Below are positions 2,042-3,460 of a stretch of DNA of 33,476 bases, one piece after another (within the stretch, counting starts at the first letter, position 1; every line of letters begins with the position of its first letter). The position numbers and the translations under genes are program-made. Source of the stretch: Ignavibacteriota bacterium (lineage in GTDB: Bacteria > Bacteroidota > Ignavibacteria > UBA10030 > SZUA-254); NCBI GenBank assembly GCA_016209795.1, contig JACQVI010000020.1, positions 1-33,476 on the forward strand, in the 5' to 3' direction. The notes under the pieces are model-generated. The model did no database searches and had not been told where the DNA came from. It was given only the letters and a program-made list of their open reading frames with translations.

Positions 2042-2145
2042 CTATCTTACACATCAATACTTGCCTGCGCAATCAGGTGCGGGAGAGATTGGAGAAAGAA
2101 TTAAAAGAGATTGATGAGATTGTGAAGGGGATTATGAAACGATAA
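2038..2145 (+). pseudogene. Possible coding remnant: charged helix tail after the Gp37/Gp68 gene
   Basis: A 35-codon frame beginning with TTG inside the previous stop region encodes a strongly amphipathic, charged end (RNQVRERLEKELKEIDEIV, then KGIMKR and TAA). Such a segment resembles the coiled C-terminal tails of restriction-enzyme or methylase subunits, so it may be the leftover 3' end of a deleted gene from the same accessory island. There is no convincing ribosome-binding site and no upstream coding continuation, because the frame runs into the Gp37/Gp68 gene. It could be chance coding in AG-rich DNA. Confidence 0.3.
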
Positions 2146-2153
2146 ATAAACCT

Positions 2154-2222
2154 GGTAGCCGCACCCTTCACGGGTGCGTAATTATGGTGACGCGGTACGC
2201 AGACGTAAAGTCTGCGGCTACC
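2154..2222. repeat. REP unit 1, left of the RAYT
   Basis: This unit contains two palindromes. The first pairs GCACCC (2161-2166) with GGGTGC (2172-2177) around a TTCAC loop. The second pairs CGCAGAC (2198-2204) with GTCTGCG (2210-2216) around GTAAA. The unit opens with GGTAGCCGC and closes with GCGGCTACC, perfect 9-bp inverted ends. The second palindrome (2194-2222) recurs base for base at 2879-2907. Confidence 0.8.
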
Positions 2223-2234
2223 GAAAACCATCTT

Positions 2235-2330
2235 GGTAGGCGCAACCTTCATGGTTGCGTTTATCGACGACACACAGGCATAAAGTGAGCGCAAAGCGCC
2301 ATCACGATAAAAGCGTGACCTGCGGCTACC
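2235..2330. repeat. REP unit 2, directly upstream of the RAYT
   Basis: It opens with GGTAGGCGCAACC; CGCAACC (2241-2247) pairs with GGTTGCG (2253-2259) around a TTCAT loop, a variant of the first palindrome of unit 1. A second stem pairs TCACG (2302-2306) with CGTGA (2314-2318). The unit ends in TGCGGCTACC at 2321-2330, 15 bp before the RAYT start codon. The middle part has drifted relative to unit 1. Confidence 0.65.
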
Positions 2331-2345
2331 ATTTGATGATGCAAT

Positions 2346-2840
2346 ATGATTCGAGAAAAGAAACACAGACTGTCTCCCGAAACCTATCATGGCTATCAAA
2401 TTGTTGCTTTCACGCTATGCCTGAAAAACCGGACCTCTTTCTTCACAACGCAAGAACGTTTTGAAATCTTTGAAAAAATGTTGCTCTTGAACGCACAAAA
2501 GTTTTACTGTGATGTTCTTGTGTATCTCTTCATGCCGAATCATTGCCATATTATCCTTTCGGGAAACAATGAACGCTCTGATCCGCTTGCGGTCATGAAA
2601 ACATTCAAACAACAGACTGGCTACTGGTTCTATAAAAACGCACTAAATGTACATTGGCAAAAAGATTTCTACGATCACATCATCCGAAAGGAGGAAGACA
2701 TTACAAAGCAAGTTCATTATGTCTTAAACAACCCAGTCCGCAAGAATCTTGTAAAAAATTGGCATGATTACCCATTCAAAGGATCAACAGTGTATGATTT
2801 TAAGGAAATGGGATTGAACTGGTGCCGCAACCCTGCCTGA
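2346..2840 (+). CDS. REP-associated tyrosine transposase (RAYT, IS200/IS605 Y1-HUH family)
   Basis: A 164-residue single-strand-specific HUH transposase. The HUH motif is H66-C-H68 within FMPNHCHIIL, and the typical RAYT signature follows: FYDHIIRKEEDITKQVHYVLNNPV, where Y125 is the likely nucleophile. The length fits the family (150-180 residues). RAYTs nick and join DNA at REP palindromes rather than moving as full insertion sequences, and palindromes of that type flank this gene on both sides. The stop codon lies inside a 20-bp palindromic insertion in the downstream REP. Without that insertion the frame would run on through the REP to a TGA about 10 codons later. The start is the ATG at 2346; no strong Shine-Dalgarno sequence precedes it. 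Confidence 0.9.
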   Translation: MIREKKHRLSPETYHGYQIVAFTLCLKNRTSFFTTQERFEIFEKMLLLNAQKFYCDVLVYLFMPNHCHIILSGNNERSDPLAVMKTFKQQTGYWFYKNALNVHWQKDFYDHIIRKEEDITKQVHYVLNNPVRKNLVKNWHDYPFKGSTVYDFKEMGLNWCRNPA

Positions 2841-2907
2841 CGGCAGGCAGGCTTCATGGTTGCGCATATTGACGGTACGGTACGCAGACGTAAAGTCTGC
2901 GGCTACC
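2821..2907. repeat. REP unit 3, right of the RAYT
   Basis: It opens with GGTGCCGCAACC. CGCAACC (2826-2832) pairs with GGTTGCG (2858-2864), but the loop is enlarged by a 20-bp palindromic insertion. The second palindrome, 2879-2907, is identical over 29 bases to 2194-2222 in unit 1. The unit ends with GCGGCTACC. Confidence 0.8.
2833..2852. repeat. 20-bp palindromic insertion inside REP unit 3
   Basis: Compared with unit 2 at 2241-2259, unit 3 has an extra 20 bases precisely between CGCAACC and TTCATGGTTGCG. With its flanking C, the insertion forms an 8-bp stem, CCTGCCTG (2832-2839) with CAGGCAGG (2844-2851), around an ACGG loop. It supplies the RAYT stop codon (TGA, 2838-2840). Confidence 0.65.
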
Positions 2908-2941
2908 ATAAAATAATCAATAAAACATCAAAGGTAAGCAC

Positions 2942-3460
2942 ATGACTACTGAACAATTAAAAAAACAACCTACATCATCCAACATCGGCGCGGCGTACAT
3001 TACTTACTGCCACCAGCGATTGCTGAAGGAATATTTTCCCAAAATCGTCCGATGCCTCGATGAGCTTTCAGAAGACGACGTCTGGTGGCGGGCGCACGAG
3101 ACGAATAACAGCATTGGCAACCTTATTCTGCACCTCTGCGGCAATGTTCGCCAGTGGATTATCTCGGGCATCGGTGGTAAACAGGACGTGCGTAATCGTC
3201 CTAAAGAATTTTCTGAACGTGAACAGATTCCCAAGTCCGAACTCCTTACAATATTGGAGTCAACCCTCCGCGAAGCAGATCGCGCGCTTGAACAGTTCGA
3301 TCTTAGCAAACTTCTCGAAGTTCGACATATCCAAGTGTACGACGTTAGCTGTCTATATGCAATCTCACAAGTTGTTGAGCATTTTTCACACCATCTCGGA
3401 CAGATTATTTACATCACTAAGCTGAGAACAGGGAAGGATTTGAAATTTTACAACTTGTAG
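2942..3460 (+). CDS. DinB-like metal-binding protein (DUF1572 type)
   Basis: A 172-residue protein with the four-helix DinB/YfiT-like layout. The N-terminal helix has YCHQRLLKEYFPKIVRCLDEL, the second has NSIGNLILHLCGNVRQWI, and the C-terminal helix has QVVEHFSHHLGQIIYI. The His in LILHL and the histidines in EHFSHHLGQ match the conserved metal-site triad of the superfamily. Members include thiol- or metal-dependent hydrolase- and transferase-like enzymes and many stress-induced proteins of unknown role, so no reaction is assigned. The gene ends one base before the converging rluE-like gene, so the two share their terminator region. Confidence 0.85.
   Translation: MTTEQLKKQPTSSNIGAAYITYCHQRLLKEYFPKIVRCLDELSEDDVWWRAHETNNSIGNLILHLCGNVRQWIISGIGGKQDVRNRPKEFSEREQIPKSELLTILESTLREADRALEQFDLSKLLEVRHIQVYDVSCLYAISQVVEHFSHHLGQIIYITKLRTGKDLKFYNL

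Follow-up and report, generated by a model that had tools for sequence, protein, structure and literature searches.

The window that we analysed, a 33,476-nucleotide stretch of DNA from an Ignavibacteriota bacterium, holds a 20-bp hairpin inside a REP that adjoins a RAYT gene. (RAYT is short for REP-associated tyrosine transposase.) Copies of this 20-mer are dispersed across genomes and phyla, match exact empty sites, keep a common fold, favour particular target dinucleotides, and nest within one another. As to how it moves, our leading reading is that the 20-mer is a non-autonomous hairpin that was captured at bonds opened by the nucleases of other selfish elements, with the RAYT as its host site. 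We propose this tentatively, from sequence comparison, and rate it just short of probable.

A filled and an empty REP arm beside a RAYT gene

The RAYT gene is surrounded by REP units, which are inverted pairs of GTAG-tagged hairpins (Table 1). In the left hairpin of unit 3, the insert reads CCTGCCTGACGGCAGGCAGG; sliding it by one base, to 2833-2852, gives an equivalent placement with the target C^C. Once the 20-mer is removed, the left arm of unit 3 becomes CGCAACCTTCATGGTTGCG, identical to unit 2, which confirms the precise 20-bp insertion described in the initial annotation. The exact REP arm occurs twice in the organism's own genome (3.39 Mb), once empty and once filled. Across 100 shuffled versions of the window (a chance control), the arrangement of the insert never recurred, and Rfam gave no match across window positions 2050-3000. 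Within the 260-base flanks of the RAYT relatives, the REP arm was seen filled in locus L240 only.

Table 1. Features around the RAYT gene, in window coordinates. The strand of the 20-bp hairpin was set by its perfect 6-bp stem on the - strand.
Feature	Position	Strand	Details
REP unit 1	2153..2224	no strand	inverted pair of GTAG-tagged hairpins
REP arm in unit 2	2241..2259	+	same REP arm as unit 3 but empty, CGCAACCTTCATGGTTGCG
RAYT gene	2346..2840	+	164 aa; PF01797; NF047646 82.5 bits, cut-off 80
REP tag minus A	2820..2825	+	TGGTGC versus TGGTAGC in REP copies; in-frame TAG stop gone
REP unit 3, left hairpin	2826..2864	+	CGCAAC^CTTCATGGTTGCG; split at C^C by the insert, a single base away from the loop
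20-bp mobile hairpin	2832..2851	-	CCTG-CCTGCC-GTCA-GGCAGG: tag CCTG, 6-bp stem, loop GTCA; fold from covariation
TGA stop of the RAYT frame	2838..2840	+	from the insert (sequence)
REP unit 3, second hairpin	2881..2908	-	inverted, GTAG-tagged

The insert supplies the stop codon of the RAYT, as had been noted, and this had been taken to mean that a slightly longer ancestral RAYT was cut short by it. We rejected such a truncation after comparing where the relatives end. Among the RAYT relatives (12 loci, window included), most stop soon after "..(D/E)W", and the REP tag itself is the stop in L249 (TTG TAG) and apparently in L246 (TGG TAG). In the window, the tag reads TGGTGCC, versus TGGTAGCC in the REP copies: one A is missing and the in-frame TAG with it. 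Because this A of the GTAG tag is lost, the frame continues for five last codons, through REP and insert, to the insert's TGA. Judged by these ends, the RAYT of the window probably once had its stop in the TAG of the REP itself. The NCBIfam RAYT model matches only up to residue 144 of 164, so neither the loss of the tag nor the insert touches the conserved enzyme.

The nearest RAYT relative (L240, from genome G034; 72% identical) has its downstream REP loop filled at the same spot as in the window, so the window-type insertion may be old, or this spot in the REP may be a repeated target. The REP-loop copy in L240 is interrupted by another short insert, and other REPs in that locus also look filled. 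Upstream of the RAYT in the window are a TcmP (three-Cys-motif partner protein) gene and a DUF5131 gene (181-1296 and 1280-2041).

Fold, dispersal and targets of the 20-mer

The 8-bp stem that was first seen in the insert is present, but the structure that covariation indicates as kept across genomes is a 6-bp stem with a 4-base tag. In a direct covariation test, we considered copies with a base other than G at position 16 (150 matches from 22 of 33 genomes). Bases 9 and 16 form Watson-Crick pairs in 133 of these, of both the T-A and A-T kinds; 2 have G-T and 15 are unpaired (tallied by hand, and copies within one burst are not independent). Double changes that keep a pair agreed in their position sums with the tag fold seven times, with the 8-bp fold once, and with neither six times. 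This covariation indicates that the kept unit is CCTG + CCTGNC-GGCA-GN'CAGG, which is a REP-like layout with another tag, and that the perfect 8-bp palindrome is misleading. The composition of the flanks is flat up to the 20-base boundary, save for the two adjoining bases: the base before the insert is rarely T and the base after it is rarely A (6% each of 236).

The initial annotation suggested that the insert was a second, smaller mobile palindrome, to be sought elsewhere in the genome and in relatives, and our searches strongly support this. The 20-mer is neither unique nor a normal part of every REP copy (unit 2 is empty). Allowing two mismatches, the organism's own genome has it in 5 places (0 for the reversed control). 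Among 60 genomes of the order, 27 have it with at most one mismatch, and two of these show bursts, with 58 forward matches in one and 45 in the other (89 and 53 if two mismatches are allowed); two congeners of the genome with 58 matches have 1 and 0. The reversed pattern had no match in 57 of the 60 genomes, and it matched in the other three (9 times in G017, twice in G044, twice in G059).

A scan of the species collection found at least 116 stretches with the 20-mer, from many phyla as judged by the names of the sequence records. Among the matches listed were Bacteroidota, Patescibacteria, Omnitrophota, WOR-3, Stahlbacteria, Neomarinimicrobiota, Nitrospirae, Schekmanbacteria, Planctomycetales, Treponema, Akkermansia, Proteobacteria and others, as well as the isolates Dokdonia sinensis, Flavobacterium orientale and Mesorhizobium sp. 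WSM3862. In 33 genomes from this wider collection, there were 1 to 105 forward matches each, while the control had 0 in all 33; the highest load, about 105 copies, is in a genome of 1.3 Mb, and that of Dokdonia sinensis SH27 (G077) has 18 matches. Another 35 stretches with the 20-mer are on viral contigs. Two of the viral contigs, which have different sample numbers (L174 and L202), have three hairpin copies in common at equal spacing. Copies also lie within tRNAs, genes and other repeats.

Of 295 distinct copies, 57 have flanks that, once joined, correspond exactly to uninterrupted sequence elsewhere in the DNA analysed, with no gap near the junction, although these matches are partly non-independent or weak (E up to 1e-3, repetitive sequence, amplified composites, self-nests). 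Removing random 20-mers instead gave 0 precise matches in 1475 trials. Five further copies match an empty site only with a gap near the junction. In L027, one repeat has a filled and an empty paralogue, TGTAGAGTC^CGACACTC. In L031 (1291-1573), an intact tRNA-Arg(ccg) is followed about 115 bp on by a second copy that is interrupted in the D-arm at GGATA^GAGC and, if its 20 extra bases are ignored, matches the first without a difference over 76 bases. The genome with L031 has 89 hairpin matches with up to two mismatches, and the best matching locus in each of two congeners is without the hairpin. The insert in L003 puts a short gene, which we take to be DUF4160, out of frame; a variant copy in L004 apparently extends what is presumably a repeat protein gene by about seven in-frame codons. 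ARAGORN found a tRNA across the joined flanks for just 2 of 244 copies (control 0 of 2440).

We found no target-site duplication of 2-6 bases, with counts at or below expectation, so the 20-mer lacks the duplication expected of a DDE-type MITE. Identity of one base between the left and right flanks is in excess (92 versus 50.6 expected), which we ascribe to targets of the C^C and G^G kinds, as both bases are retained in the empty sites. There is also an excess at 7 bases (7 versus 0.04 expected) and one case at 8, which we tentatively put down to tandem or nested copies.

Among the 207 junctions left after similar ones were removed, insertion favours CC/GG, AC/GT and AT and avoids TA, GA/TC and CA/TG. 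For example, CC/GG occurs 57 times versus 24.6 expected, and TA 0 times versus 11.2 expected. Copies with a GACGG centre prefer C^C over G^G (38 versus 9 of 119).

The 20-mer also enters itself. Ten of the 295 copies (a tally that has no control count) are nested in another copy. The offset is 9 or 11 in every case, the same loop bond as seen from the two strands; none of them lies at any other of the 19 offsets. In a smaller set, 5 of 244 copies are self-nested, versus a control mean of 1.04. The 20-mer appears to be triply nested in L279, around position 667. In genome G055, other dispersed hairpin repeats carry the hairpin at a constant position (L164, L166, L168 and L298, and again L160, L291, L292 and L297), so these composites were apparently copied as units.

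A general preference for hairpin loops was rejected in the form in which it first appeared. It is strong against shuffled flanks (stems of at least 5 in 28 of 236 copies versus about 8 expected) but weak with local controls and similar junctions removed: stems of at least 5 in 15 of 207 (7.2%) versus 4.2% (p = 0.03), p = 0.38 for stems of at least 6, and 29% versus 25% in a fold-based loop test (p = 0.11). We therefore limit the rule of entry at loops to the structured targets that we saw, where it holds: the hairpin's own loop, tRNA arms, and the REP of the window.

GIY-YIG nucleases and interrupted tRNA copies

Free-standing GIY-YIG homing endonuclease genes are small and lie beside the gene that they may invade. 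Clustering the reading frames near hairpins led to a small family of GIY-YIG nucleases (Pfam PF01541), in whose loci, unlike those of the known free-standing genes, the flanking tRNA pieces hold hairpin plugs. In loci chosen for the hairpin, 10 of 11 strong GIY-YIG domains are within 130 bp of it, versus 9.5% expected (p = 6e-10), for a family that was picked after viewing many clusters of reading frames. A weak match in L003 is 450 bp from the hairpin, and a remnant in L031 is at 27. Of ten layouts viewed, five (L033, L034, L080, L098 and L157) have a partial tRNA copy with the hairpin, then the GIY-YIG gene, then an intact tRNA, and L056 mirrors this order; tRNA-like pieces are present in L204 and L150, with no intact tRNA found, and L059 and L149 have no tRNA in the locus. 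Across 60 relatives, the number of GIY-YIG genes tracks the number of hairpins (rho = 0.50, p = 5e-5; rho = 0.46 once RAYT count and size are removed; both uncorrected for relatedness), and both counts may follow the general mobile load.

We also chose 30 loci by their GIY-YIG profile score (L348-L377), using a profile that was built from hairpin-adjacent domains, L348 and L349 being members. A tRNA gene is present in 29 of the 30. A partial copy of that tRNA is also present in 29, compared to 6 to 8 when the wrong tRNA is used. In 21 loci, which include a few doubtful joins (such as L354 and L373), the tRNA copy is interrupted and then resumes; wrong-tRNA controls gave 0, 0 and 1. With a stricter test, 12 of the 30 loci are interrupted, versus 0 in five control rounds, and in loci without GIY-YIG, 2 of 47 tRNA genes pass, both from hairpin-chosen loci.

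The inserts in these tRNA copies are mostly hairpins of many sequences (mean z of -3.9, range -1.4 to -7.5, for 11 inserts), and 14 of 21 have a stem of at least 6, versus 8% of random windows. The breaks are in the D-loop, anticodon and T-loop; 14 of 18 are in or at the edge of a loop, versus 48% expected (p = 0.01), and seven are exactly at the edge of loop and stem, six of these by the CCTG hairpin. One bond, A^GAGC, is shared by unrelated hairpins: one of 46 to 51 bases in L353 and L366, and the CCTG 20-mer in L031 and L094.

Most copies of the 20-mer are not close to such genes: about 11 of 295 are within 130 bp of a GIY-YIG domain. Conversely, the CCTG hairpin is in 4 of the 30 GIY-YIG-chosen loci (two with 2 and 4 mismatches, and two from the earlier set). 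In L073 and L094, a tRNA copy is interrupted by the CCTG hairpin in a locus without a GIY-YIG gene. The window's own genome has 6 GIY-YIG matches, and among the 3 matches listed, none is on the contig of the window, C204. We found no GIY-YIG gene in the window, so the window copy is not itself a plug beside such a homing gene, as in 21 of the 30 chosen loci.

From these patterns we infer either capture at bonds opened by nucleases or selection of plugs in leftover tRNA copies. The CCTG hairpin inserts cleanly and leaves its target unduplicated; it favours C^C, A^C/G^T or A^T and, among the structured targets that we saw, mostly lands at a loop or beside one. In the capture reading, which is the one that we favour, it would be taken up, probably in the form of a single-stranded hairpin, where the nucleases of others have opened a bond, with the small GIY-YIG nucleases beside tRNA genes as the foremost candidate enzymes. 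Depending on the genome, one and the same tRNA bond is filled by the CCTG hairpin or by an unrelated one. In the window, the 20-mer landed at the loop of a RAYT-linked REP, which another enzyme, the RAYT included, may have opened.

A closer partnership between GIY-YIG nucleases and short hairpins is conceivable, and we think it doubtful. The nuclease would open a fixed loop bond in the left-behind piece of tRNA, and a hairpin from a pool would be captured there as a plug, so that the copy becomes uncuttable; the CCTG 20-mer would be a member of this pool that escaped across genomes and phyla and into REP loops.

Other explanations and known palindromic elements

Instead of capture at bonds opened by other nucleases, the 20-mer might be a third kind of tagged REP (CCTG, not GTAG or CGTC) that is moved in trans by a single-strand transposase of the Y1/RAYT type. 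GTAG- and CGTC-tagged REPs are described as 20-40 bp, with an unpaired tetranucleotide tag and a short hairpin, dispersed, and sometimes inside genes (PMC3733652, in part). The 20-mer is like them in having a tag and a hairpin, a layout supported by covariation, in being dispersed, with many copies in some genomes, and sometimes in lying in genes, and it likewise makes no target duplication. Some gene with PF01797 was present in all 16 genomes searched, the window's own included, and in genome G024 a Y1 gene is beside the hairpin copy in L027. Also, tag changes alter the cleavage sites of one studied REPtron, and REP insertions are in print within RAYT genes of one subclass (PMC8266576 and PMC6006769, each in part). 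However, the tag of the 20-mer is CCTG, which does not appear in the main text of PMC3733652; we saw no RAYT flanked by the 20-mer; the exact 20-mer is in many phyla; and some copies are in tRNA pieces beside GIY-YIG genes. Of the 69 (of 91 matching) Y1 loci scanned, 5 have the CCTG hairpin within about 1.5 kb (3 of 39 with the window included, and 2 of 30), which by a rough estimate is near chance at such copy numbers, and none has it on both sides. In a REPtron, the RAYT is flanked by the same REP, and the RAYT of the window is flanked by GTAG REPs. The number of RAYT genes follows the number of hairpins weakly (rho = 0.23, p = 0.08). Finally, the hairpin's flanks have no conserved cleavage tetranucleotide: there is a bias at the two flanking bases and not the fixed left-end target tetranucleotide of IS200/IS605 elements. 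In all, we found no link between RAYT and the mobility of the hairpin, and we consider movement by RAYT unlikely.

We consider it slightly less likely again that the hairpin spread by being selected as a plug. By breaking the second copy of a repeat (a tRNA piece or a REP), it would protect against nuclease cutting, tRNA misprocessing or deletion of the element; any hairpin would serve, and the other insertions would be a by-product. As this predicts, hairpins of many sequences interrupt the tRNA pieces next to GIY-YIG genes (21 of 30 loci versus 0, 0 and 1 for the controls), but this reading leaves unexplained the roughly 100 copies of one 20-mer, few of which have a tRNA gene close by (25 of 295 within 400 bp, in the loci analysed).

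Replication error seems improbable. Template switching at palindromes, with no dedicated enzyme, could copy short hairpins and would fit the self-nesting and the local duplicates beside filled copies, but the unit is exactly 20 bp, the empty sites are exact, the same 20-mer is in many phyla, and the reversed pattern is absent from 33 of 33 and 57 of 60 genomes. Last, the 20-mer is almost certainly not a normal loop variant of this class of REPs: the site could be old, given that it is filled in L240 beside a RAYT that is 72% identical, but no insert is present in unit 2 or in the REP arms seen beside the other RAYT relatives, and copies outside REPs (in tRNAs, genes and other repeats) refute this.

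To our knowledge, the 20-mer is among the smallest mobile DNA units. The very small mobile repeats (SDRs) of cyanobacteria, reportedly described by Elhai and colleagues in 2008, are said to be mobile elements of about 20 bp that are nested in other repeats and in RNA genes. By this description, the 20-mer is alike in its size, in its clean empty sites and in being nested in repeats; the sequences and hosts reportedly differ.

Other small palindromes are more distant. A few REP families sit within other palindromes, and Rickettsia palindromic elements are longer repeats, ending in CGTC, that are perhaps inserted in frame in genes (both from part of PMC3733652); the in-frame insert in L004 looks similar to the latter. 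In yeast mitochondria, GC clusters are tiny GC-rich palindromes that spread and merge, such as GC42 (42 nt, with a putative AG target duplication), and intron-encoded endonucleases have been proposed to aid their spread (PMC4478555, in part, citing Lang et al. 2014). The 20-mer is likewise a tiny GC-rich palindrome, but it is 20 bp, makes no duplication and is bacterial. In the CC-licensed literature (titles and starts of abstracts), neither CCTG-tagged palindromes nor hairpin-plugged tRNA copies were among the matches listed; GCCTGCCGGCAGGC as a literal string had no match there, and the matches to other literal sequence strings were unrelated by title.

The same exact 20-mer occurs across many phyla, and its empty sites are exact and testable. 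The link between GIY-YIG nucleases and plugged tRNA copies provides a concrete candidate for how tiny palindromic repeats could move without a gene of their own. Furthermore, short protein tails and in-frame inserts in such genomes may be read-through of mobile hairpins.
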